Virus record (IMG/VR): IMGVR_UViG_3300030450_001306
Span: 1-29,848 of that record
From: a virus
Strand: one strand, 5' to 3'
Length of the DNA: 29,848 bases
Position 1 is the first letter of the stretch, and each line of letters begins with the position of its first letter. This document shows, piece after piece, positions 952-28,071 of the stretch. The notes under the pieces were generated by a model, which searched no databases, had not been told where the DNA came from, and worked only from the letters and a program-made list of their open reading frames with translations. A program made the translations under genes and the position numbers.

Positions 952-2844
952 CTACAGATCTGGTAAACCAACTCCCATTTGTCCACGAAGTTGTGCTACC
1001 AATTCTGGAGGAACCCCACCAGTAGCACCAAAAGCGCCACCCTGTTGAGGTACCAGACCCTCCATCATTGCTTGCGACGCTCCCATACCGGCATTAGCAG
1101 GTTGACCTTCTTGTTGAGGTTCCTGCCCGCCCATAGGCATAGGTTGTTGCTGCATGATAAATTTATCGGGATCTTTAATATCAAATCCCATAGTCAAAAC
1201 GTGTTTAGCCAACGCAGTTGGATCTATAACAGTTCCGACAAGCGGAGCCATCGCATTTAATAATGAGACAGCCTGCTGTTTACGAATAGTGTCATTAACA
1301 GGTTGAGTAGAACCACCCTCCACTGTGAAATCAAACTCTCCAATAATATCTTCACGAGAGTAAGTAAAGAAAAGATCCTCGCCGCCTTTACCCGCAATAC
1401 GAGCCATCTGCTCACCTGTCATAAATTGTTGCATCAACTGGATAACACGACGTGCTATTTGACCAATACTAATTTCAACAATTGCCAATTTGTCTGCCGC
1501 ACGTGCGTTACCAGCATCCGCAATAATTGACGCTTCAGTAGCGGTACGACGTATTTCCGGCATCTGACCGCGAGCATATTCTGAAACACCCGACACAGTA
1601 TTAATATCTTCTTCAATGATTGCTGAAGTGTTATAAACCTCTGGAGACAAAGGTGTTTGAGGCATAGGAACCACAACTTCTTGCAAAGGTTTATTTTCAT
1701 CAACTACTGGAACCAAACGTCCATCTTGATCTGATTCTAATGCTTCACGTCCTTCAGGACCAAAAGAACGCTCGTGGTACAAATATTTTCTAGCGTAACG
1801 TTTACGTGCATTGATCAACTGAGTGCGTGTCTTGTCCAATTCCAACTGCAAAGATTCAATTGATTCTAAATCACCCATCGGATAGAAAAAATCAGGAACG
1901 TCATAATTTCGTAACATTACAAAAGGTTGACCATAAGCGTAAGGCATAGGTATCGGATCTACTAAAAACTCTTCACCTGATTGTGAAAACACCGACATAG
2001 TGTTAGAAGCAATATCATAATATTCATAAATTGCTACTCGATCTTCTTCACTTAGAAATTCTTCTTGTTCCTGACGTTCTCTGTTTTGAAACATCGGATA
2101 CAAAATACCATCTGCTGTTAAACGTCTACGTGCCGCTTGTTTATAACGTTTATCTTTCTTAGCCTCTTCCAAAGGACGGACAATACGTTGACAAATCCAC
2201 TGAGCATCTTCCATGCATGTCGCTTCCGGGTCAATGTAAATATCGAAAGGTGAAACTCTTTCAACAAAAGGTTGATCTTCAACGACCACCGACATCGTAT
2301 TTGGGACATTAACTATTATCTCTTCATCAGTTGGAAGACCGCCTGCTAAAGCAGCATTTTCCATAGCGAATGTTTCTGCTTCCAAAATAGCCTCATCGAC
2401 CATTTCATCACGTTCAACTTCGGTTACTGTTCGTTCCTGCTCGACAAACTTCCAACCAACTTTTAACCATCCGTGACCATTAATCAAAAAGTCTTTAACT
2501 GCACGTCTAAATGGTTTACGGAAATCGTGATGTCGCCACAAATAATTAACAACCGCTTCAACAAAAGCAGCCCTGTCAGCATTCTCCTGCTCGGTAGCAG
2601 AAACAACTATTTTAGGATGATTAACTGAAACAGAAGGAGCGATAACATTGATAGTGGAAAAGGCAAGATTAACCACTATTAGATCTTCTCTGGTTACAGT
2701 TGTACGTGGAAATTGTTTACCACGATACAAATCAATCATCCGTTGCCAAAGAGAGTCATAACCCATTTCGTCACGCCAACGAGCAGACGCTTCTAGTCGA
2801 CGTTTAGCAATCTCAAATTGCTCTGTTCTAGTTTTTTTAGCCAT
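952..2844 (-). CDS. Portal protein
   Basis: At 630 residues this matches the larger portal proteins of short-tailed phages. The N-terminal half is rich in Trp, Tyr and Arg (YDSLWQRMIDLYRGKQFPRT), followed by VVNLAFSTINVIAPSVSVNHPK, a stretch typical of portal proteins. Residues around 85-130 include FVEAVVNYLWRHHDFRKPFRR and INGHGWLKVGW. The C-terminal 75 residues are Gln-, Gly-, Met- and Pro-rich and low in complexity, like many portal tails. Twelve copies normally form the DNA entry/exit ring at one capsid vertex. The start overlaps the stop of the upstream gene as TAATG, so translation is probably coupled. The packaging genes upstream and the scaffold downstream support the call. Confidence 0.93.
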   Translation of the reverse strand: MAKKTRTEQFEIAKRRLEASARWRDEMGYDSLWQRMIDLYRGKQFPRTTVTREDLIVVNLAFSTINVIAPSVSVNHPKIVVSATEQENADRAAFVEAVVNYLWRHHDFRKPFRRAVKDFLINGHGWLKVGWKFVEQERTVTEVERDEMVDEAILEAETFAMENAALAGGLPTDEEIIVNVPNTMSVVVEDQPFVERVSPFDIYIDPEATCMEDAQWICQRIVRPLEEAKKDKRYKQAARRRLTADGILYPMFQNRERQEQEEFLSEEDRVAIYEYYDIASNTMSVFSQSGEEFLVDPIPMPYAYGQPFVMLRNYDVPDFFYPMGDLESIESLQLELDKTRTQLINARKRYARKYLYHERSFGPEGREALESDQDGRLVPVVDENKPLQEVVVPMPQTPLSPEVYNTSAIIEEDINTVSGVSEYARGQMPEIRRTATEASIIADAGNARAADKLAIVEISIGQIARRVIQLMQQFMTGEQMARIAGKGGEDLFFTYSREDIIGEFDFTVEGGSTQPVNDTIRKQQAVSLLNAMAPLVGTVIDPTALAKHVLTMGFDIKDPDKFIMQQQPMPMGGQEPQQEGQPANAGMGASQAMMEGLVPQQGGAFGATGGVPPELVAQLRGQMGVGLPDL

Positions 2845-3449: not shown

Positions 3450-4115
3450 TTACAGTGTCCCACGCATACTATGTTTTCCTATATGCATATCGTCAGTTTC
3501 TTCAGGTTTAACCAACCTAGAGAACCAATCCACTGTCCAATAATCGTCCACTTTCTTTGTAAATTCAGGCATATAAGCGTATTGGCGCATCTCATTAGCC
3601 AACGCCAAAGCCATAACACGGTCGTCGTGAGGACTTCCGCTCATTGTTCCACGTTCATTACGGACATAAGTGCGTAATTCCGCCAACGTGTGCCTATCAT
3701 GAATTTTCAATTCATCAGAACGCAAAGCCATACCCAAATCATCAATTAACAAAGGTTTAGTAGTTCTAGTAGTTTTCCAACCAAACTCTTGAGAAACCTT
3801 AGTAGTAGCCTGATTTAAACTTCTTTTACGGAAAAGATTAGGATGCCCCAAATGACGCAACTGAACAATCGTGGTTAACCCGTGGTTATTTGACTCCACA
3901 CAAGTTAAAGCATCTTTATACCACAAAGCCAAATTGTAAACTTCATTAGCCAAATTGTCAGGAGGGATATGCCCATGCCACATAGCAACCTGTTCACCGC
4001 CACGCACATCTAAAACCTGAGCGCAAGAATAATCGCCATGGACTAAACCTTCAGCAGTGTCCACTCCTATACAATAAATTTTACTAACGTCCGGTTCACG
4101 CCAAACTGTGAGCAT
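3450..4115 (-). CDS. Terminase large subunit, nuclease domain (separate gene)
   Basis: This 221-residue protein corresponds to the C-terminal RNase H-fold nuclease of phage large terminases (Terminase_6C type), which cuts concatemeric DNA during packaging. Visible acidic ligands are D19 in CIGVDTAEG, E74 in TCVESNNHG and D164/D165 in SPHDDRVMAL, spaced as in intact terminases. Between them is the usual FRKRSLNQATTK segment before FGWKTTRTTKPLLIDDL. There is no ATPase motif; that lies on the adjacent upstream gene, which overlaps by 20 bases in another frame. A GGAG lies about ten bases before the ATG at 4115, so independent initiation is plausible. In a single-chain homologue the TVWREPD segment would join directly to the ATPase half. 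Confidence 0.92.
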   Translation of the reverse strand: MLTVWREPDVSKIYCIGVDTAEGLVHGDYSCAQVLDVRGGEQVAMWHGHIPPDNLANEVYNLALWYKDALTCVESNNHGLTTIVQLRHLGHPNLFRKRSLNQATTKVSQEFGWKTTRTTKPLLIDDLGMALRSDELKIHDRHTLAELRTYVRNERGTMSGSPHDDRVMALALANEMRQYAYMPEFTKKVDDYWTVDWFSRLVKPEETDDMHIGKHSMRGTL

Positions 4116-5001
4116 CTTTTCTAAACTCCACTACTTTCGGATAAGGATTCCATAAATATCCTCCCTGACCTTCTTCAACATCCCCCATCATCCTTTCTAA
4201 AACATCCAAATCAAAAACAGGATTACCCGACTTAATGAAAGCCTCTTCAGGGCTACTGGGATACTCCTGAGCCAACTGCCAAGACAGCATAGATTCTTTC
4301 TTAGATTCATACCAAGTGTCATCCCTATCTTCGGTAGCAGACCAAGGAAAAAACATTGGTTCAAACCTGTTGTTGCCAGTCTCAGAACCAACCCATAATT
4401 CGTGAAAAAAGTTACCCGAACCATTAGCAGTAGACAAACCAATGATCCTACCGCCAACATCCGCTACTGGCTCTATAGAAGCCCACGCTTCTTCAGGATT
4501 TGGAAGGAACGCCCATTCGTCAACCACAACCAGCGTAGCCGACTCACCTCTAGCAGGATCGGATGCTGAAGGCATTGAAGTAATTTGCGACCCATTATCA
4601 AACCCCATTTTCTGCTGATGCTCAACAAGCGATTTCGGACCACGTTCCACCATCCATTCAGGTAAATGAGAAAAACCATACTTTGATTTTCTTAACAACA
4701 ACACAGATTCACGCTCAGTACGTGAAAGATCAATAATGTTCTGATCAGAATAAAAATATGCTAACCAAAACTGATGAGCAGCAACCAGAGTAGTCCACCC
4801 AATCTGACGAGCCTTTAACGTGAGACTATAACGATGTCGGTCCCAGTGTTGTAAGGCGGTTGACTGCGCACGTCGTAAATCAAAAAGGATACGACCATGA
4901 GCAGGATGAGCGATATGCCAATACTTATGTAGGAAATAAGACTCATCTCTCTCACAACGCCTCCACTCAGCCTCTTGCTGTAACTCAGTTAACCTTGACA
5001 T
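4096..5001 (-). CDS. Terminase large subunit, ATPase domain (separate gene)
   Basis: This 301-residue protein has the N-terminal motor half of a large terminase. KARQIGWTT at residues 63-71 is the divergent Walker A, LVVVDEWAF at 157-165 is Walker B with D161/E162, and GLSTANG at 188-194 is the coupling motif. The usual YPSSPEEAF segment follows near the C-terminus. The protein ends at a TGA just where an intact terminase would pass into its nuclease domain. The nuclease is encoded by the next gene in the +1 frame. I chose ATG 5001, with AGGG seven bases upstream, over the in-frame GTG at 5007. It powers DNA translocation through the portal. Confidence 0.93.
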   Translation of the reverse strand: MSRLTELQQEAEWRRCERDESYFLHKYWHIAHPAHGRILFDLRRAQSTALQHWDRHRYSLTLKARQIGWTTLVAAHQFWLAYFYSDQNIIDLSRTERESVLLLRKSKYGFSHLPEWMVERGPKSLVEHQQKMGFDNGSQITSMPSASDPARGESATLVVVDEWAFLPNPEEAWASIEPVADVGGRIIGLSTANGSGNFFHELWVGSETGNNRFEPMFFPWSATEDRDDTWYESKKESMLSWQLAQEYPSSPEEAFIKSGNPVFDLDVLERMMGDVEEGQGGYLWNPYPKVVEFRKDAHSLA

Positions 5002-5010
5002 TAACACACC

Positions 5011-5808
5011 CTAAACGAAACAATGAGCAGTCTCACAAGTATCAGGACCATCCTCAAACAAACTTTGCTGATCAGGTAAATTTTCCATCTTGCCACGTAT
5101 TTTAAAAGTACAAGGCGCTCCGAGTTTCTCTAAAGTGCGCTTACTCATTTCACGTTCTAATTCAACAACCTCTTCAAACAAATCAGGTCTTTTCCGCCTT
5201 AACCTCAACCAATAATCATTATTATGAAACGGGCAATAAAAACAAGCCGAACGAGGAGCAGACGGCAAACCAGCGTCTTTCACAATTCTTCTACATTCGT
5301 CACGAGTTATTTTCCCATCTATCAAAGGAAAATCATTTATCTGATATCTGCGTTTACTATCTGACATTCGCTGAATTTCATCATAAGAAATACCCAAGCC
5401 CATCATCACAGGATCATGCATCGTTGCACCTTCTTCACGAATATGCTTTTCCAACACTCTAATTTTCCAATGCCCAGTACAATTACGAGTCAAAGGCGGC
5501 GCTCTATGTTTTCCTGTTCTAGGAACAGTCAAACGCACCGGCAAAGGAATCAAATTAGGCTCATGCTCAATCTCTTCCCTGATAGAACGAGTTTCCCCGT
5601 CTTTAGAAACACGTTCTAAAACACGCAACTCCATGCCATGTTTTTCCATAAAAGGTTTATGAACATTTTCAATGTATTCATAAGTTTCAGGATGTTCATC
5701 GCCCGTATCTGCGAATAAAAAAGTTTTATAATCTATCTCACCCTGCGCTGCTAAAACCATAGCCGCAGTAGATTGCACCCCTCCACCAAAACTAAAATAC
5801 CTTTTCAT
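5011..5808 (-). CDS. PP-loop ATP pyrophosphatase (PAPS reductase-like)
   Basis: This 265-residue enzyme belongs to the adenine-nucleotide alpha-hydrolase/PAPS reductase superfamily often found in phages. The PP-loop SFGGGVQST is at residues 6-14, followed by FADTGDEHPETYEYI, and RNCTGHWKIRVLEK around 108-121. Cysteines C110, C189 and C192 (SACFYCPFH) could coordinate a metal or Fe-S cluster. The family activates substrates with ATP, for example in sulfur transfer or nucleotide modification; the phage substrate is unknown. The start overlaps the upstream zinc-ribbon gene as TAATG, and the gene ends ten bases before the terminase ATPase start. That places a metabolic or modification enzyme inside the packaging operon. 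A role in sulfate assimilation is doubtful without partner genes. Confidence 0.85.
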   Translation of the reverse strand: MKRYFSFGGGVQSTAAMVLAAQGEIDYKTFLFADTGDEHPETYEYIENVHKPFMEKHGMELRVLERVSKDGETRSIREEIEHEPNLIPLPVRLTVPRTGKHRAPPLTRNCTGHWKIRVLEKHIREEGATMHDPVMMGLGISYDEIQRMSDSKRRYQINDFPLIDGKITRDECRRIVKDAGLPSAPRSACFYCPFHNNDYWLRLRRKRPDLFEEVVELEREMSKRTLEKLGAPCTFKIRGKMENLPDQQSLFEDGPDTCETAHCFV

Positions 5809-6266: not shown

Positions 6267-6421
6267 TCGCAAGATTCGCAGACCTCAGGGTTTTCCAAAC
6301 CGCAAACGAGTTCCTCATCGTCCGAAAAAACATCATATTCTTCAGATGAAAAGGCACCATCATATACCAATTCAGGGCGCTCCCCAAGAATCGTTTCATC
6401 CTCATAATCAACCGTCCCCAT
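6263..6421 (-). CDS. Small acidic protein with C-terminal cysteines
   Basis: This 52-residue, strongly acidic protein starts MGTVDYEDETILGERPEL and ends with C-rich EELVCGLENPEVCESCE. Three cysteines (C40, C48, C51) might bind a metal. The ATG lies inside the last codons of the terminase small subunit gene and has GAGGGT seven to eight bases upstream. It ends as ATGA into the next gene. The charge is in keeping with a DNA mimic or a protein-binding peptide, but that is speculation. The frame differs from the longest ORF at this location. Confidence 0.65.
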   Translation of the reverse strand: MGTVDYEDETILGERPELVYDGAFSSEEYDVFSDDEELVCGLENPEVCESCE

Positions 6422-6866
6422 CAACAACCCTCAAATGATGAATCTGCGCCTCCAACTCGTCCGCCAATTCCTCATCAGACATAGCAGCAGCATCCCTATC
6501 CTCAACAAGAATTTTCCGACGAGGAGTGAACTTCTCAATATACTGCAAATACAAAGACGCAGCCTGAACACTCCCACTCACAGCCTGAGAATGCAAAGCA
6601 TCAATAACACCCTGAGTGCGCTCAGGATGAATATTCAACTCCGCAGCACGACGATCCCACTCCTTAGCAAAACGCACATCACGCTTAATACGACGAATAG
6701 AATTTTCGTTAATATTATTTTCTTTAGCCCAATCTTTTTGCGTTTTAGGAACCCTATCGGGTCCCTGAAGAAGCCAGTCTAAAAGATCCTTCCACTTCTT
6801 AGGCATAATCTTTTCGCCCGTCTCTTCATCTGTCTGCCAACCTTTGCCGCCACCGTTTTGCGCCAT
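6408..6866 (-). CDS. Terminase small subunit
   Basis: This 152-residue protein has a helix-turn-helix-like N-terminal region at about residues 43-62 (QKDWAKENNINENSIRRIKR), then an amphipathic region with ALHSQAVSGSVQAASLYLQY and an acidic C-terminal tail. This matches the DNA-recognition and oligomerisation layout of phage small terminases, which bind the pac or cos site and load the large subunit. I chose ATG 6866 with GGAGGT seven bases upstream; an ORF start 15 codons further up lacks support. It is the first gene of the minus-strand packaging operon, close to the large subunit genes, and three tiny genes follow with overlaps. Confidence 0.8.
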   Translation of the reverse strand: MAQNGGGKGWQTDEETGEKIMPKKWKDLLDWLLQGPDRVPKTQKDWAKENNINENSIRRIKRDVRFAKEWDRRAAELNIHPERTQGVIDALHSQAVSGSVQAASLYLQYIEKFTPRRKILVEDRDAAAMSDEELADELEAQIHHLRVVDGDG

Positions 6867-6896
6867 AATAGGAACCTCCAATAATAAAACTCCGAC

Positions 6897-6942
6897 TGTC
6901 CCGTATGACAATCATGTTACAATACACAAAAATAGCGGGACA
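6897..6942. promoter_or_regulatory. TGTCCCG / CGGGACA dyad upstream of packaging operon
   Basis: Seven-base perfect inverted arms, TGTCCCG at 6897-6903 and CGGGACA at 6936-6942, flank an AT-rich 32-base centre just upstream of the small terminase gene. The centre contains TATTGT on the minus strand, which fits the TAnnnT form of a -10 box. An operator overlapping the late promoter is the simplest reading. Unproven. Confidence 0.4.
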
Positions 6943-16241: not shown

Positions 16242-17204
16242 GTGGATGCTCTTACACCTGAAGAGGTGGCTCATCGTCTTTCCGTTGCCACGGACGGAGA
16301 GACGGTGGACCCCTCTGACATAAACAAACCTAAGACGTGGGCTTTAACCAACCAAGTAGTAGACAACCTTGTAGGTTTTATACGCAACCCTTCCGAACGC
16401 TGGTATCTCGGATTCCCCGAAATAGATTTAGCGTCAAGAGGAATAGGTAAAGGTGAAGTCTTAATGGTAGTGGGTAGATCCCACACCGGCAAATCACAAA
16501 TGCTGCTAAACAGTATTGTGGTTAACCTGATCAACGACCCTGCGACACACGTTGTTATCTTCTCAATGGATGAACCTAGAGAACTGGTAGCGATGAAACT
16601 GTTCTGCTTGTTGAAAGGTCGTTCCTCCACGGATGTGGAAGAAGCAATAAAAGCAAATGACCAAAGAACAATACAAGAACTCGCCGAAGCGTCAGAGAAG
16701 GAACTGTCACGAGTAGCGATCATAGATGAATCATTACCACTATCCCGTATGGAAGAAGTGATGGAAGAGATCAGAGAATGGTTCGGAACCAACCCGTCGT
16801 TCGTGATGCTCGATTACCTAGAACTACTACCCGGAGGTGACTCAGATGCGACAGGAGTTACAACCAAAGCGCAAGCAGTTAAACGCTGGGCTAAAACCCA
16901 ACGAGTACCAGTCGGGCTTGTTCATCAAGCAGGCAGAGGCTCAGGAGACAAAGGTAAAGCCGCAGGACTGTATGCAGGCAGGTACGGAGGTGAGCAAGAA
17001 GCAATATTTGTCATCGAAGTTTACCGACAACGAGACAGATATGACCTGTCACCGTGGGAAAAGAAATACCATACCGATTCAATCAACCTCAACCTGTGCA
17101 AGAACAAACGCACAGCACGACTAATAGATCAAACATATTACTTAGACCCATCCAGCGGTCACATCCACCCATACTGGGAGGAGTTGATACCCGATGCAGA
17201 CTGA
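16242..17204 (+). CDS. DnaB/RecA-like replicative helicase ATPase
   Basis: This 320-residue protein has a RecA-type ATPase core. Walker A is GRSHTGKS at residues 78-85 after IGKGEVLMVV, and Walker B is SFVMLDYLELL with D191. The preceding VVIFSMDEP segment and the DYLELL strand match DnaB-family helicases. It is shorter than DnaB and lacks the full N-terminal primase-interaction domain, as in many phage helicases. It starts with GTG at 16242, supported by AGGAG nine bases upstream; the nearby ATG is out of frame. It overlaps a small gene and then the primase, and together they would form the replication engine. Confidence 0.85.
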   Translation: MDALTPEEVAHRLSVATDGETVDPSDINKPKTWALTNQVVDNLVGFIRNPSERWYLGFPEIDLASRGIGKGEVLMVVGRSHTGKSQMLLNSIVVNLINDPATHVVIFSMDEPRELVAMKLFCLLKGRSSTDVEEAIKANDQRTIQELAEASEKELSRVAIIDESLPLSRMEEVMEEIREWFGTNPSFVMLDYLELLPGGDSDATGVTTKAQAVKRWAKTQRVPVGLVHQAGRGSGDKGKAAGLYAGRYGGEQEAIFVIEVYRQRDRYDLSPWEKKYHTDSINLNLCKNKRTARLIDQTYYLDPSSGHIHPYWEELIPDAD

Positions 17205-17370
17205 AGACTTCCAAATCACACGTAAACCCATAGCATTAGGCGCAGGTGTATGGATACAAAGATGGGTGGTGGAAAAAGAAGGCAGAATACTTGAACTGTC
17301 CGACACTAAAGAAGAAGCGGAGATTTTCGTAGCCACCAAAGTAGATAACTGGAGATCACGAGATGAGTAA
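17194..17370 (+). CDS. Small protein between helicase and primase
   Basis: This 58-residue ORF starts MQTEDFQITRKPIALGAGVW and ends with IFVATKVDNWRSRDE. It overlaps the helicase by 11 bases and the primase by 8. GGAGGAG lies 12-18 bases upstream of its ATG. It has the alternating pattern of a small beta-sheet. No family recognised; a primase-helicase accessory is possible from context. Confidence 0.65.
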   Translation: MQTEDFQITRKPIALGAGVWIQRWVVEKEGRILELSDTKEEAEIFVATKVDNWRSRDE

Positions 17371-18376
17371 GTATGACAAAGAAACCATCAAAGGATTCGC
17401 TGACCTTTTCAGAGGAGGCAAAGTAGCAATCGACACAGGAGACTTCAGACCGTGGACAAACCACGACGGAACATTCGTCGCAGCGCAAGGGGAAGAGTAC
17501 GAAACTAAGATAAAAGACCACCTGCAAGCAGAACCAGCCATAGGTGTATACCCGCTGTTCGCAGAAGACGACGGACTGAAAGTCTACTGGGGGTGCGTTG
17601 ACTTAGACGAAGGTATAGAAGAATCCTACAGTCACGCCAAGAACATCAACCAAGTGTTAACACAACTAGACATCAAATGCTGGGTGGAAAGGTCAAGATC
17701 AAAAGGTTTCCACGTGTGGGTGTTCTTCACTGAACCAATGCTCGCACGAGATGTACGCACAGGACTGTTAGGAGTATGTCAAATAGTTGACGCACCCACA
17801 AAAGAAATAAACCCCAAACAAGTAGAACTCTCACAACGAGGATGGGGAAATGGTGTCCGCCTACCCTATGCGGCTACCCGTCAAAGAGGTGGCTACAACG
17901 AAATGACAGACCCCGAATGGTCTATGTCTATAATATCAGTAGCGACTTTCGTAAAAGATGCTATACCAACCCGTGTGACACCCGAAGCGTGGGATCCTGT
18001 CAGAGCCATATACAAGCCTCCTGAGCGTATCTCAGTGCCTTCACCGACAGTATCCTCGTCTAAACCCTTACATGGACTCTCAAAGGCTATCAGAACAAAT
18101 GGTCCTAAAGGTAGTACGAAGAATGACAGATCAAGAACCCTCGTAGCATTAGCCTGCTCCATGTTTAGAGACGGGTATGACAAACCTACCATCTATTATG
18201 AACTAAAGTCTGCTGACAAGGATTGGGGCGGGAAATATGCCAACCGTAAAGACGGAGAAGAAATTCTGTGGAAAATAGTAAATGACTACGAAAAAGTCGC
18301 GTGGAAAAACCACGAAGATTACAAGCGTCGTTATCGAGAGAAGACCGAAGGTCAAAGCGAGACCGAGACACACTAA
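17363..18376 (+). CDS. Archaeo-eukaryotic-type primase
   Basis: This 337-residue protein has the signature of the archaeo-eukaryotic primase superfamily. CVDLDEG carries the metal-binding D80 and D82, SKGFHVW at 113-119 carries H117, and GNGVRLPYA at 162-170 is the usual downstream block. The C-terminal ~90 residues (RTLVALACSMFRDGYDKP and beyond) resemble the helical PriCT-type region that couples to helicases. It makes primers or fills gaps in replication next to the DnaB-like helicase. Some such primases also polymerise DNA, and no separate DNA polymerase is in the window. The final 95 bases also encode the start of the RusA gene in another frame. Confidence 0.85.
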   Translation: MSKYDKETIKGFADLFRGGKVAIDTGDFRPWTNHDGTFVAAQGEEYETKIKDHLQAEPAIGVYPLFAEDDGLKVYWGCVDLDEGIEESYSHAKNINQVLTQLDIKCWVERSRSKGFHVWVFFTEPMLARDVRTGLLGVCQIVDAPTKEINPKQVELSQRGWGNGVRLPYAATRQRGGYNEMTDPEWSMSIISVATFVKDAIPTRVTPEAWDPVRAIYKPPERISVPSPTVSSSKPLHGLSKAIRTNGPKGSTKNDRSRTLVALACSMFRDGYDKPTIYYELKSADKDWGGKYANRKDGEEILWKIVNDYEKVAWKNHEDYKRRYREKTEGQSETETH

Positions 18377-21393: not shown

Positions 21394-24300
21394 TCAACGA
21401 TTCTCAAAAGACTTCCAAACGTTACGTTCTCTAGCCTCAGCAATCGACCTGCGGATCTCTTCACTACGCTGCCTGCGAGGAGTATTAATACGGACACTCA
21501 CCCCACCCAAAGTAGACATCATCGACTGAATCCAAGTCTCCTGAGTTTTCTCATCTTCAGGAATCACGCGACGCAACCTACCTATGAACGGCAACAGGTT
21601 TTCTAAAATACCCAACTTCTTATCATTGACCATCCACTCGCCCTTAGCATTCTTACCACCCCAACCGAGCATGTCTAAAGAAGTAGTCATACCCGGAATT
21701 GTTCTAAAAGCAACAGGGAGTTTAACGAACTCATCCTGATAAGGGATACCAGCAAACAACTTTTTGTCCGCCCAATACTCAATAGGAGTTTTAAAGAACG
21801 GAGTAGCACCAGAGAAAATCTGTTCCATAGCAGCACCCCCACCTTCACGACTAGGATCAAACCTGAACAAATCCTGCAACGGCAAATCGGGTGCAGCATA
21901 AGTAGTAGCACCACCTATCTTCCAAGGTAACTGAATGTTGAAATTCTCTAAGAAATAATCAGGAACCATGTCTTCTTTCTCTTCACCCATTTCCAAGTTA
22001 CGTTTAATGGACATCAGACGGTTAAACTTGCCGGGGTTACGAGCCAACAATTCCATTTGCAGCGGAAAGTTTTTACGAGTCCAAGTGTAAAACGGAAAGA
22101 AACGTTTACCATACTTCTGTTCAATAGTAGACAACCCGCCATAATTGAAATGCAACTTGTAAATCATTTCCAAAGCATCATCTAAACTACCACCAACATC
22201 CATCACATGAAGACCAGTACCAAGACGCATCATCTGCTCTGCAAAAGTATTAGCATGCCTCACCGCAGCAAATATAACGAACCCTGAATCAGCAGGATTT
22301 AAAGTAACACGACCTTGACGGAAAGGATTATCTTTACTACCGACAATGTAATCCAATTTTCCGGGTTGTCCTAAATTCAAATCGACAGTAGAAGCAGCCT
22401 GACCTCCCCCGTCACCACCCGCTTGCCTAATTTTATAAGCATTCCGCAAAGTCAAATCATCAGGATTTTTTTCCATCAACTTCTTCAACCCTAAATCAAA
22501 ATCACCCTCACCCGCTTTATAAATACGACTAATCAAACGACCTGTTTTAATATTCACTTCCAAAGGAATGTCAGCAAACCACATGTTGCTCATACCACCA
22601 AAAACGTTACGCAACACAAAACCCGGAGTAGCAACCATCTGCGCTTTCATCCAGTTATGAACCCTGTCATACGCTCTCAGATACTTACCAACAGCCTCTC
22701 TGTCATTCATCTTCTGAGCAGCCAACAAAGAATCAATAACACTGTCCGCCATATACTCATCGCCCGTTATTAAAAAGTTGCCCCACATCTGCCGAGAAGA
22801 AAGATTAAACATATCTCTCACTTCTTGAGCAGACTGAGGAGGGACAAACTCCCCTCCGAAACTATTCAAATTGAAAGCCAAACCATTTTCAGAACCCAAC
22901 TCTGCTTGAATACTCTGAAGCATCCCTATGCGTTCATCTTCAGCCATAATCAGACGTGCCGCAACCTCCTGCTCTTTAGCAAGCAGTTCCAACACAACCT
23001 TCTCTTCGGCTTCCAACTTCTCTACAGCAGGAATCTTTCTGTTTAACCAATAAAAATATTTTTCTCCTTTTTCCTGCATTGACGCTTCGATTCTTTTAAG
23101 TCTCTCAACAATGTTTCGTTGAGCCTCATCCATGCTCACAACAATTGCTCTTCGAGCAGTAAAATCACCCTCCAATGCGTCAGGTAATGCGACCCTTGAA
23201 TAAGCGTCTGGAATATAACTTGAGGATGCAGGATCTCGCCTCGCTAAAGAACGTGCAGCAACATCCCTTGCTTCACCACGAGCGATTTGAATCACCTCAT
23301 TCAAGTCGGTAACCTCTCGCATCTGAGAGACACCGAACCCCATACCTAGTTCTTCGTCAAGTAACGTCCGGAAAGGGTCATCTGCTTGTCCACGCATTTT
23401 TTGCAACATAGTACCCACAAACTCATCAAAAGTAATATCTCCCGTAGCGTCAAAATAAGTGCTTTGCAACGATTCAAACGCTTCCCGCAAATTTTGTGCT
23501 ATAAGATTAAAGTTGTCAGAATAAGAATTCAGATAGTTGGTTTGCAAAGCGTTTTCAATTTCCCCAAACTCTCTGATTGTTTGAACAAACGCTTCAACAC
23601 GATCAGCGCTATTAGTAAGTCTCTCTGTACCAGTACCAGCATATTCAGGAGGTGTTAATTCACTTTCCGCTGTTCGCGCCTTTCGTCTCACAAAACGACC
23701 ATCAACTCGTTCCAGTTGATCAAAATCAGGGTCTCTGAGTTGACCAACAATTTTACGTTGAGCAGGAACAGCAAAACCGTCAGCATTTTTTCTCCACAAA
23801 CCGCCCTGCATGCCACGTAAAGGTTGAGCGGAATCAGTTACAAGCCAATCAGGATGATTCATATCCAAACCTTTAGTTGGCTGACGTATAACACTCGGAC
23901 CCATATTCATATCTACCCACGCATTGTAAGGAGATAAGGATGTTCCACCAGACTGATTTCTGAAACCCACCCTGCCGTACTCTGCTAGTCTGAACAAATC
24001 ACCTCGATGTGTTTCCCAATTTTGAGAAATTTGCAGTCGAATCTCTTGAGTCATTTCAATGCCCGTAACTTCTTCCCAATCTAAAACTCGTTGAGGTTTA
24101 GGCATATTCTCATTACCCACATTGCGAAGACTAAAGTATCTTGCTGTCTCTCGATCAGCCCATGCAGGTCCCGACAACGTTTCCTGTGTAGTCCCAGCAC
24201 CCGGCAAATCAACAGTGTGAGGTTGCGTCACTCCATCCATGTCTTTATATTCGACGGTGTATGTATCAGCGACAGGCGCTGTATTTTTTTCTGGACCTTT

Positions 24301-27300
24301 GATTAAAGCAACATCCTCTACGTTTTTTCCTGCGTTTGTCGCAGCGGACTCTAATTCATCCGACCAGTCAGACAACTTATAAATACTAAAATCAGCAGGA
24401 CCAGCCATAGGGTTGAAAGCGCTATTGCTGCCAGCAGCAGATGCCGATATTTTTCTACCTGCACGATCCGCAGCATACAAAAATGTAGAATCCAGCCACT
24501 CGAAAAGACCACCCATTAAACGTCGTAATCCCGCCTCTTTACCAGAGCCTTTAAGAGCAATCATTGCCCTACTACCCATTGAGTCGTGCATACCAAACAA
24601 CGACCAACTCATTTGCCACACATCTCTATCAGAGTTAGGCGATATGTCTATAATAGGATGAGCCAGTGGAGCATTAGCACCCCCATAACCGTCAACAACG
24701 CTTTGTTCAAGAATGCCATCATCAACTAATTCTTGCAACTCATCCATGATTTGTAGCCGACCCTGATGCATAGAATCTAAACCAGCAACCATACGTTCTC
24801 TCATAGGATGATCACTAGCAAGAATAATGTCCGACCATGACTGATCACCCAATGCAGGGATCTTTTCATAAGGACCCACAAAAAGAGGGTTTAAAGACAT
24901 GGTACCCTCAAACGGAATACTCCCTATTTGAACACTGTTACCAACATCCAAACCTAAAGCATCATTAAACTCTTTGCCTACTATTTGAATCAACTCATTA
25001 ACATCAGTATCAGAAAGAGTAGCGTTCGCCTTAACAGCATCGTTGATTCTTATAACAGCCTCAACAGTTCTGTCTCTCATCATCGTGTCATCTATAACAT
25101 CATGTAAATAAGGCAACAAAGTACCTTCAATAAATTCAACTTCATGTTGCATATCGCTTAAAAGATTGTCGTCAATGTAAGAAAGAAATTCTGACGCTTC
25201 GAAATCACCCAGAAATTCGTCAGCAGCCATACCTTCAGGCACTTCATCAAACCCAGCGTTCATCTCTAACGCATCAGTAAGATCCTCTCTCACCTTCTTC
25301 ATATAATGGATTGCTTGCTTGATTTTAGCCAGCCGAACCACAATAGGATCCAAATCAGCCATTATAGGAGCAAGAACTTCAACAGCATTAATAGCGTAAC
25401 GGGCAGACCCGCCGCGACGATAATCGATAGGGAATCCCAACAAGTCCGCAAACTCGACTTCAGCAGGAGTGCCGCCACCAGACCCTCCGTCAAAAACGCG
25501 TCCTAACTTTTCGTTAATCTCTCGAATCATCCCTACTAATTCGTCGCCAAGATCAATCAACTCGGCATCGGACTCTATCAACTCTTCTAATGTTTCATTA
25601 AATTTGCCTATTAAGGAAAGTCTTTCAGCCCCGTACTTTTGTTGATACTCTCGGATAGTTGCTATAATTTTTTCACGAGCCGCTACACGAGCCTCAGCAG
25701 CCGCTCTCGCCCCGCCAGCCGTAGCCAACTCTTCATCCAATTGACGGACAATAACCTCTAACGCTTCCAACTTTTTTGCCATATCCAAATAAGTATCGGC
25801 ATTAAAAACTATACCTTTAGCAGCAAACGCCATTTCTATTAAACGTATACGAGCATCAGCAGCGACACTGGAAGTGTATGCAGCCCTTTTAGCAGCAAAA
25901 CCTTGTTTCCATAAAGACTCGCCTGCTTCCAACCATCCAGCCTCTCTGAAAGCATCATCTATCTGACGTGCAATAGAACGACCAGCAGGATCAGTAACAA
26001 GATTACCTGACCTAGCACGAGCAGCCTCTTCAGCAGGTGTTAAATTACGGGTGATAACAGTACCTATCCATTCATCATCATCACTATGCCTTGTTTTAAA
26101 ACCTAAACCACGTTGAGGCGCACCCGGACGTTGACCACCCGGATGAAGCAACTTCACTTCAAGAAATTTACCCGGAGAATCCCTCAAAGGAATTTTAAAC
26201 GTAACACCCTGCACAGCCCTGCCTTCACGAGTTATACGACTAGGTTGACTACCACGAGTTTTTTGACGACCATACTCCGCTCTTCCACGACGTTGAACCT
26301 GAGTCATATTAGAAGCCCTCATCCCCTCAGGGATAGACTCATCTAAAACTTCGTCAAAACCTCTAGCCCAAACCTGAGTTTCAGCCCAATCATCACCAAA
26401 CAAAACTCTGAACAGATTCCTAGACTCAGGAGTTAAAATCATCGGCTCATAACCGCCATAATCATTAAAGACATCTTCAACATCATTAATAAACTTGCCG
26501 ACCAAATTCCCACCGTCATCCACTTCCAACGGGTAAAGATTTTTTCTCAACAAAAACTCTAAATCAGGCACATCAATCTGAGTAGACAACAAAGTTTTAA
26601 CATCCGCTATCTCCTGCAAAGACAAATTAGGAAAATCATTCGCTAATCTTGCAGCAGCCGCAGGGTTCAACTTGTTGTTTTGAATCTCCCAAACGAGAAT
26701 ATCAGGCTCATCCGCTATCCGACCTAAAGTCTCGTCATCAACCTTTGGGAAAGTTCTACGAACAAGATTTTCTGTCTGTCGAGTACGTTTATTAAAATTC
26801 TCCACCAAAGCACCAGTACCCATAGAGGAACGGTTATTAGCAGATCTCACAAGTTGAGACAAAATAATATCATCAGTGTCTCTACTCCGAGACAAATTAC
26901 GAGCAACCCTTTTAGTTTCACGCCTAGTCGCATTAAACGCTTCAGCCTGCTCCGCAGGACTACCACTTCTACGCAACGCATCTTCATAAGTTTTCATCGG
27001 ATCAACAAAAACTTTTTTAAAAGCCTGAGCGCCCTTAGTTGTAGCAACCTTCTCGTACAACAAACCCGGACCAGACATTATTGCAGCAGCAACACCACTA
27101 CCCAAAGGAAACACACCTATAGGAAGAGCATCAACAGGAGCCTTAGCAGCCATCCTTATGATACTTCTGGCTTCTCCAGACAAACCTTCAGGTAAATCTT
27201 TTAAACGTTTCTTGCTTTGAGAAGCAAAAACTAAATCCTCTAACTTGTTTTTACTAGGGTCCCAACCCATAGTTTTTAAATTCTGTTGAGTTATTTCAGG

Positions 27301-28071
27301 TATTTGTTCTGCACGTTTACGAGCAGCGCGTGTCGAACCTCTACTCATCCTGCCTAAAACAGGACCAGTACCCGGAACTCTCCACCTTAAACCAGTTTCA
27401 ATTCCCAAATCGTCAACCAGTTTTTTACCTATGTCACCATGGTTTCTGATCAAAACATTACGAGCAGCAGACACGCTGCGTTTCTGACCAGCCGCTTTAA
27501 TAGCATCGTCAACAGCCCTCAACTGTGCAGCCTGATCACCTTTCAATCTGCCCAATTTTTTCAACTCTGTTAAATCTTGATACAACGGAGTTAAATCATC
27601 AATAAGACCTTTAGTTCCTCTTATACGAGCATAAGCACCTAAACCGCCTGCCCATGAAAGCGGATCTAAAGCAACGTCCCCCACAAAACCTGCTATACGG
27701 TTACCCCATTTACCTAAATCAATGTTCTCTTCACGTATAAGATCACCGAAACCGTAATGTCTTTTAGTTTGATCAGCGAACTCACCGAAGTTAAAACCTT
27801 CTCCTTGGAACAAGTCGATTGTTTCTTTTAAACCTGATGTTAAAACAGCGCGAGGAAAATCTATTACGCCAAGAACTTTACCGAAAATACCACCCATGCC
27901 ACGTGGCTTAGGAGGAGCAGCGCGAGCAACTTTGAATTGTTCCCAAACATCTAAAGGATTAGCAACTCCAGAAGAAGTTTGAGGTTGTTGTAAATTTTGG
28001 TTGCTTCTAGTTACACCTTGTGACGCTATTTGTTTTAATACTTTGTTAAGAGCAGGATTAGTGAGAGACAT
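21394..28071 (-). CDS. Very large structural/ejection protein
   Basis: This 2,225-residue protein fills the space where short-tailed phages place their internal virion or DNA-ejection proteins. It has no signal peptide. The N-terminal ~70 residues hold a GMGGIFGKVLGVIDFPRAVL stretch, then GNRIAGFVGDVALDPLSWAG, a pattern I associate with large phage virion proteins. Long helical, charged parts (about 720-830, with AREKI..YQQK) follow, and a C-terminal block contains TPGFVLRNVFGGMSN and, about 170 residues on, KRFFPFYTWTRKNFPLQMEL. The end is basic (PRRQRSEEIRRSIAEARERN). No transglycosylase, protease or polymerase motif was visible to me. A virion location is inferred from size and position beside the lysis genes. 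Confidence 0.75.
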   Translation of the reverse strand: MSLTNPALNKVLKQIASQGVTRSNQNLQQPQTSSGVANPLDVWEQFKVARAAPPKPRGMGGIFGKVLGVIDFPRAVLTSGLKETIDLFQGEGFNFGEFADQTKRHYGFGDLIREENIDLGKWGNRIAGFVGDVALDPLSWAGGLGAYARIRGTKGLIDDLTPLYQDLTELKKLGRLKGDQAAQLRAVDDAIKAAGQKRSVSAARNVLIRNHGDIGKKLVDDLGIETGLRWRVPGTGPVLGRMSRGSTRAARKRAEQIPEITQQNLKTMGWDPSKNKLEDLVFASQSKKRLKDLPEGLSGEARSIIRMAAKAPVDALPIGVFPLGSGVAAAIMSGPGLLYEKVATTKGAQAFKKVFVDPMKTYEDALRRSGSPAEQAEAFNATRRETKRVARNLSRSRDTDDIILSQLVRSANNRSSMGTGALVENFNKRTRQTENLVRRTFPKVDDETLGRIADEPDILVWEIQNNKLNPAAAARLANDFPNLSLQEIADVKTLLSTQIDVPDLEFLLRKNLYPLEVDDGGNLVGKFINDVEDVFNDYGGYEPMILTPESRNLFRVLFGDDWAETQVWARGFDEVLDESIPEGMRASNMTQVQRRGRAEYGRQKTRGSQPSRITREGRAVQGVTFKIPLRDSPGKFLEVKLLHPGGQRPGAPQRGLGFKTRHSDDDEWIGTVITRNLTPAEEAARARSGNLVTDPAGRSIARQIDDAFREAGWLEAGESLWKQGFAAKRAAYTSSVAADARIRLIEMAFAAKGIVFNADTYLDMAKKLEALEVIVRQLDEELATAGGARAAAEARVAAREKIIATIREYQQKYGAERLSLIGKFNETLEELIESDAELIDLGDELVGMIREINEKLGRVFDGGSGGGTPAEVEFADLLGFPIDYRRGGSARYAINAVEVLAPIMADLDPIVVRLAKIKQAIHYMKKVREDLTDALEMNAGFDEVPEGMAADEFLGDFEASEFLSYIDDNLLSDMQHEVEFIEGTLLPYLHDVIDDTMMRDRTVEAVIRINDAVKANATLSDTDVNELIQIVGKEFNDALGLDVGNSVQIGSIPFEGTMSLNPLFVGPYEKIPALGDQSWSDIILASDHPMRERMVAGLDSMHQGRLQIMDELQELVDDGILEQSVVDGYGGANAPLAHPIIDISPNSDRDVWQMSWSLFGMHDSMGSRAMIALKGSGKEAGLRRLMGGLFEWLDSTFLYAADRAGRKISASAAGSNSAFNPMAGPADFSIYKLSDWSDELESAATNAGKNVEDVALIKGPEKNTAPVADTYTVEYKDMDGVTQPHTVDLPGAGTTQETLSGPAWADRETARYFSLRNVGNENMPKPQRVLDWEEVTGIEMTQEIRLQISQNWETHRGDLFRLAEYGRVGFRNQSGGTSLSPYNAWVDMNMGPSVIRQPTKGLDMNHPDWLVTDSAQPLRGMQGGLWRKNADGFAVPAQRKIVGQLRDPDFDQLERVDGRFVRRKARTAESELTPPEYAGTGTERLTNSADRVEAFVQTIREFGEIENALQTNYLNSYSDNFNLIAQNLREAFESLQSTYFDATGDITFDEFVGTMLQKMRGQADDPFRTLLDEELGMGFGVSQMREVTDLNEVIQIARGEARDVAARSLARRDPASSSYIPDAYSRVALPDALEGDFTARRAIVVSMDEAQRNIVERLKRIEASMQEKGEKYFYWLNRKIPAVEKLEAEEKVVLELLAKEQEVAARLIMAEDERIGMLQSIQAELGSENGLAFNLNSFGGEFVPPQSAQEVRDMFNLSSRQMWGNFLITGDEYMADSVIDSLLAAQKMNDREAVGKYLRAYDRVHNWMKAQMVATPGFVLRNVFGGMSNMWFADIPLEVNIKTGRLISRIYKAGEGDFDLGLKKLMEKNPDDLTLRNAYKIRQAGGDGGGQAASTVDLNLGQPGKLDYIVGSKDNPFRQGRVTLNPADSGFVIFAAVRHANTFAEQMMRLGTGLHVMDVGGSLDDALEMIYKLHFNYGGLSTIEQKYGKRFFPFYTWTRKNFPLQMELLARNPGKFNRLMSIKRNLEMGEEKEDMVPDYFLENFNIQLPWKIGGATTYAAPDLPLQDLFRFDPSREGGGAAMEQIFSGATPFFKTPIEYWADKKLFAGIPYQDEFVKLPVAFRTIPGMTTSLDMLGWGGKNAKGEWMVNDKKLGILENLLPFIGRLRRVIPEDEKTQETWIQSMMSTLGGVSVRINTPRRQRSEEIRRSIAEARERNVWKSFENR

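Follow-up and report, generated by a model that had tools for sequence, protein, structure and literature searches.

Organisation of the terminase locus

The DNA investigated here is a viral stretch of 29,848 nt (IMG/VR record IMGVR_UViG_3300030450_001306, positions 1 to 29,848), in the following designated the window, in which the ATPase and the nuclease half of the large terminase subunit are found in two separate, overlapping open reading frames (ORFs). The features which make up this arrangement are:

4096..5001, minus strand: terminase large subunit, ATPase half; 301 aa from ATG (MSRL), 303 aa if read from an in-frame GTG at 5007
3450..4115, minus strand: terminase large subunit, nuclease half; 221 aa, own ATG, N-terminus MLTVWREP
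4096..4115, minus strand: overlap ATGCTCACAGTTTGGCGTGA, read in two frames; 20 nt, the nuclease frame being +1 to the ATPase frame
4126..4129, minus strand: GGAG, resembling a Shine-Dalgarno (SD) sequence; within the ATPase gene (codons GTG GAG), 10 nt 5' of the nuclease ATG

The C-terminus of the ATPase half reads ...VVEFRKDAHSLA and is followed by a TGA stop. An earlier inspection of the DNA letters without database searches, referred to below as the sequence-only reading, had described two overlapping genes, the first ending at a TGA and the second possessing its own ATG preceded by GGAG, and the ORFs are indeed located as described. The same holds for a nuclease start placed 20 bases inside the first gene in the +1 frame. 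In contrast, an overlap of 30 bases, which had likewise been mentioned, disagrees with the ORF coordinates since these confine the shared segment to 4096-4115.

Both halves can be assigned to the Terminase_6 or T4 gp17-like large terminases. The ATPase half matches Pfam PF03237 (Terminase_6N, 1.6e-7), is a terminase large subunit according to PHROGs and yields a profile match of 1.3e-31 to the ATPase of T4 gp17. The nuclease half matches PF17289 (Terminase_6C, 2.2e-5), two PHROGs families (phrog_38407, which has no assigned function, and phrog_24361, terminase) as well as the nuclease domains of RB49 gp17 (2.6e-10) and T4 gp17 (1.9e-8). Its residues D19, E74, D164 and D165, singled out already in the sequence-only reading, are invariant across 14 diverse relatives, with D19 pairing in the alignment with D401 of T4-like phage gp17. 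A packaging ATPase and an RNase H-like nuclease with an acidic triad are therefore both recognisable. Within the ATPase half, the Walker B motif (LVVVDE) and the coupling motif (STANG) are present as proposed, while the supposed Walker A motif turned out to be a deviant P-loop, LKARQIGWTT (residues 62-71; window 4789-4818, minus strand), in which a tryptophan replaces the lysine of the usual GK. The resulting G-W pair is invariant within the clade described below. T4 gp17 (PDB 3cpe, 2o0h) and the RB49 gp17 nuclease (3c6a), the closest solved structures in terms of both sequence and fold, have the same two domains and the same pattern of catalytic residues. T4 gp17, however, is one chain with a hinge, whereas two chains are encoded in the window.

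Distribution of the split among relatives

Relatives were collected by scanning IMG/VR with each half, and a second large group was obtained from a query with a distant member. All counts of junctions refer to the matches listed and are lower bounds. The junctions come from IMG/VR plus one contig of a metagenome-assembled genome (MAG); one locus (L034/L133, a single contig) was dropped from later counts because of inconsistent pairing and two ATPase-half hits. In all of the approximately 170 distinct junctions among the matches listed (105 in the first set and about 65 more in the second) the two domains are encoded by two ORFs instead of one polypeptide, and none of these junctions harbours a fused gene. 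Fused genes appear at about 50% identity (MW202803.1, L150/L151) and lower, down to proteobacterial MAG contigs. The closest annotated phage relative, the terminase of Caudoviricetes sp. ct52p938 (MW202803.1; 52% identity in the ATPase and 45% in the nuclease half), is, unlike that of the window, encoded by a single 560-aa gene. Alignment with fused relatives reveals that no stretch of protein has been lost at the split. Alignment of related phages had been named in the sequence-only reading as the way to check the split, and it returned the same split throughout the clade and fused genes exclusively at the distances given.

In protein trees, one change suffices to separate the fused from the split state, and the branch leading to all split rows is supported by Shimodaira-Hasegawa-like approximate likelihood ratio test (SH-aLRT) values of 91 in the first and 100 in the second tree. 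As the fused rows are located on long branches, one origin of the split is likely rather than proven. The contig from the MAG (L236, PAYF01000019.1), which carries the split terminase of the clade, belongs to a genome titled Euryarchaeota, which may indicate a link to the host or a mis-binning; it is the sole close contig found in a scan of GTDB genomes.

A sequencing or assembly error disrupting what is truly one ORF could produce the observed picture in an individual contig by means of a single-base indel, and the fused genes of MW202803 and of further relatives which share no more than about 50% identity might be quoted in its favour. Yet the split recurs in many assemblies, which together contribute about 170 distinct junctions, the nuclease gene possesses its own ATG or GTG start, and a dual-frame constraint is found exactly at the overlap (see below). 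This explanation, to which we attribute a negligible probability, is therefore rejected for the clade.

Junction geometry and genes between the halves

Within the group to which the window belongs, the 20-nt overlap is present in 95 of the 105 distinct junctions of the first set. The second group shows ATGA or GTGA junctions in 54 of 65 cases, with some TAATG. In one locus (L064) a TAG is directly followed by the ATG, which places both halves in the same frame, and in two others (L129, L134) the nuclease gene starts with GTG and overlaps the ATPase gene by 29-32 nt. Despite these differing junction types, the ATPase protein ends with VEFR or a close variant thereof followed by a short variable tail of 1 to about 10 residues, and (x)LTVW or LEVW forms the N-terminus of the nuclease protein.

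In several lineages, comprising seven contigs, a complete, unrelated gene is located between the two halves. A ferredoxin gene coding for about 90 aa with a single cluster (Fer4_15, 8.6e-17) occupies this place in four contigs (L137/L239, L240, L241 and L242; 2726-2998 in L137), and a PAPS-reductase-like gene is found there in three or four (L328, L329, L337 and L357; about 830-845 nt between the halves), its Pfam match (0.00042) being slightly under the curated cut-off. All inserts are bounded by ATGA-type junctions with short start/stop overlaps. Relatives with an empty site keep an intact ATGA/GTGA junction, the identity of the two flanks amounting to 97.8/98.6% (L337/L342), 96.8/97.4% (L240/L136) and 99.5/95.7% (L328/L335). 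In those lineages, frameshifting cannot give access to the nuclease half. The PAPS-reductase-like inserts exist in two divergent versions which are about 51% identical. Related phage ferredoxins are also encoded elsewhere in other contigs, in L247 directly upstream of the ATPase half.

A further conceivable reason for the interruption is a group I intron, a homing endonuclease or a split intein, with the parts later being joined. This is a known cause of interrupted terL genes, as described for Jug phages (PMC12363816), Lelliottia phage phD2B (PMC4246154) and cyanophage Mic1 (PMC7156551), whose terL is interrupted as in the window and for which the authors conclude rejoining by RNA or protein splicing. 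In the present case, however, the ORFs overlap and leave no room for an intron, and the ATPase tail following VEFR is too short for an intein half. Moreover, neither the window nor the loci with inserts yielded any Rfam match, and the inserts are metabolic genes, not endonucleases. In contrast to the published examples, there is hence no intron or intein, and two proteins appear to be encoded; we ascribe virtually no likelihood to subsequent joining of an interrupted gene.

Selection and start-site signals

The figures on selection relate to the 20-nt overlap class, and the underlying counts do not represent independent events as the sequences share ancestry. The ratio of non-synonymous to synonymous change (pN/pS) is 0.16 for the ATPase half and 0.23 for the nuclease half at a pS of 0.64-0.67, which means that synonymous sites are near saturation. 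Judged by these ratios, both halves are under purifying selection. Within the overlap, the synonymous change in windows of five codons drops to 0.13-0.15 in the nuclease frame (median elsewhere 0.68) and to 0.01-0.08 in the ATPase frame. The third codon of the nuclease gene is ACA in 90 of 92 cases, a triplet which accounts for 14% of the threonine codons elsewhere, and codon 6 always ends in T, thereby providing the T of the ATPase stop. This stop is kept without exception, be it as TGA, TAG or TAA. The frozen overlap together with the retained stop implicates that both frames are read as protein and that the ATPase stop is maintained.

The GGA(G/A) ribosome site upstream of the nuclease start is kept in the 20-nt class as well. 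The synonymous base of the GTG codon contributing to it is nearly frozen (pS 0.06), the SD core GTGGA is retained, and the energy of the duplex with the anti-SD sequence has a median of -5.9 kcal/mol over 102 junctions. The two genes accordingly display what characterises a coupled pair, namely a stop and a start which overlap or lie at a very short distance, an own start codon and an SD sequence.

The nearly invariant sequence of the overlap in the 20-nt class could also be thought to reflect a programmed +1 frameshift, giving rise to a full-length fused terminase, alone or beside the short ATPase, the more so as AAA-G in front of the ATG would permit a slip of tRNA-Lys. Such invariance is, however, expected from two overlapping reading frames, AAA-G is missing in 31 of the 92 junctions, and the stop varies between TGA, TAG and TAA. 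In addition, the RNA is no more structured than its shuffles (z +1.35, window 4060-4180). Neither a slippery site conserved at one constant frame relation nor a stimulatory RNA structure, both expected of a frameshift gene, is thus found in the junctions and the segment analysed. Sister clades furthermore differ in their frame relation, a variation incompatible with a frameshift product that is required, and the presence of 270-845 nt of another gene between the halves elsewhere means that a fused product is dispensable there. A programmed +1 frameshift in the overlap is highly improbable in view of these data. The sequence-only reading had favoured a real split into two genes above frameshifting and sequencing error, and this view is borne out by the lack of any fused close relative among the matches listed, by the variable junctions and by the intervening genes.

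Position of the cut and structural model

According to the alignment, the seam corresponds to residues ~380-383 of T4 gp17. The catalytic D401 follows 18-20 residues later, and the ATPase domain of T4 that was crystallised, which comprises 360 residues, ends about 20 residues ahead of the seam. On the basis of this mapping and of the model described below, the cut is placed beyond the hinge, inside the first nuclease strand. The claim of the sequence-only reading that the break falls exactly at the domain boundary has to be corrected in so far as the seam is found just inside the nuclease domain.

The model was calculated for L064 read through its TAG, which joins the in-frame halves to a chain of 525 aa, and is alignment-based (predicted local distance difference test, pLDDT, 87.2; predicted template modelling score, pTM, 0.72). 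It comprises strands at residues 281-287 and 293-303, and the seam (297-299) lies within the second of them at a local pLDDT of about 78. As the model forces a covalent link between the halves, it reveals the adjacency of their ends when joined, not the docking of separate chains. A Foldseek search with this model returned T4 gp17 as the top match (2.5e-32), with separate ATPase and nuclease domains lower in the list. Folding of the nuclease half without an alignment led to no usable model (pLDDT 33.7).

Other genes of the window

Two further genes flank the terminase ORFs:

952..2844, minus strand: portal protein (SU10_portal, 1.4e-27); downstream, in the same packaging block
5011..5808, minus strand: PAPS-reductase-like gene (PF01507 1.6e-6, phrog_424 4.6e-41); upstream of the ATPase ORF at a distance of 3 nt, same family as the inserts in L328, L329, L337 and L357

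Upstream of the packaging genes, a candidate small terminase is encoded at 6408-6911 (minus strand; HTH_Tnp_1_2, below the curated cut-off). An ORF of 2225 aa (21394-28071, minus strand) has no Pfam match and shows a weak match to a tail-fibre PHROG near its C-terminal end. On the plus strand (16242-18376), an archaeo-eukaryotic primase of the TOTE type (PF22548, 17363-18376) is encoded beside a DnaB-like helicase gene (16242-17204).

Discussion

In nearly all tailed phages the large terminase is a single chain, and its gene is the usual marker gene and treated as coding for one protein. In the clade described here, the sequences reveal two conserved genes, the second of which has its own start site, a split which is an inherited trait of the whole clade, and halves which are separable by inserted genes. 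Taken together, the varying junctions, the intervening genes and the lack of an intron argue for translation of the nuclease from its own start. We consider it very probable that two neighbouring genes together supply the large terminase of this clade as a heteromeric enzyme. Translation of the ATPase gene would terminate at 4096-4098, and initiation of the nuclease would take place via the internal GGAG at its own ATG, which precedes the end of the ATPase gene by 20 nt. From the overlap, translation of the nuclease is probably coupled to that of the ATPase gene, which would keep the two products close to a 1:1 ratio. Non-covalent assembly of an ATPase chain of about 301 aa with a nuclease chain of 221 aa would then give a unit corresponding to a single subunit of T4 gp17, and such units would form the ring of the packaging motor. 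Short overlaps couple translation and are enriched among subunits of complexes (PMC10666635), and the ATGA and TAATG junctions and short overlaps known from coupled pairs encoding such subunits (PMC6728339, PMC10666635) are also seen in the clade.

The ATPase chain is predicted to extend about 30 residues past the ATPase domain and to end in the strand VEFR, which in a single chain would be continuous with the LTVW strand. Since the cut is placed past the hinge and leaves hinge and strand on the ATPase chain, docking of this strand suggests itself as a substitute for the covalent link. We tentatively put forward, as a possibility of somewhat less than even likelihood, motor subunits made of two chains by strand complementation, in which VEFR would complete the edge of the nuclease sheet beside LTVW and thereby replace the covalent hinge which T4 gp17 reportedly requires, at a boundary which takes repeated cargo inserts (ferredoxin, PAPS-reductase-like).

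Several points weigh against a motor assembled from two coupled genes. The range of coupling analysed in the literature, -8 to +10 nt, does not extend to an overlap of 20 nt as present in the window (PMC10666635). With 10 nt, the distance between the SD sequence and the start is on the long side, and SD-like matches of equal strength occur at about 14% of the positions within the ATPase gene. AAA-G, which permits slippage, precedes the nuclease ATG in 61 of 92 junctions, and low-level +1 frameshifting may, to judge from these sequences, occur in the 20-nt class. Finally, T4 gp17 severed at its linker reportedly retained its ATPase and nuclease and lost translocation (PMC3012670), so there is no guarantee that a motor of two chains functions in the same way.

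Alternatively, both halves might act as separate proteins, with translocation being carried out by the ATPase chain on its own and the nuclease serving solely as a free endonuclease. Separate genes would allow such independent action, and phi29-type motors package without nuclease activity (PMC8589836). The two genes, however, remain adjacent and overlapping in nearly all members, and we regard this alternative as unlikely compared to a heteromeric enzyme.

A search of open-licence papers returned terL genes split by introns or inteins and no report of the present clade. If members of this clade were annotated on the basis of their first gene only, the nuclease would go unnoticed, and both halves might be removed by filters on length. 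The seam of the terminase at the same time doubles as a slot for gene insertion. The split also amounts to a natural experiment: translocation was reportedly lost when the linker of T4 gp17 was cut, yet a diverse clade keeps the two-gene form. The difference between nature's cut, in the first nuclease strand, and that made in T4 gp17, at the hinge, would offer a specific prediction on how the motion of the ATPase is passed on to the DNA.
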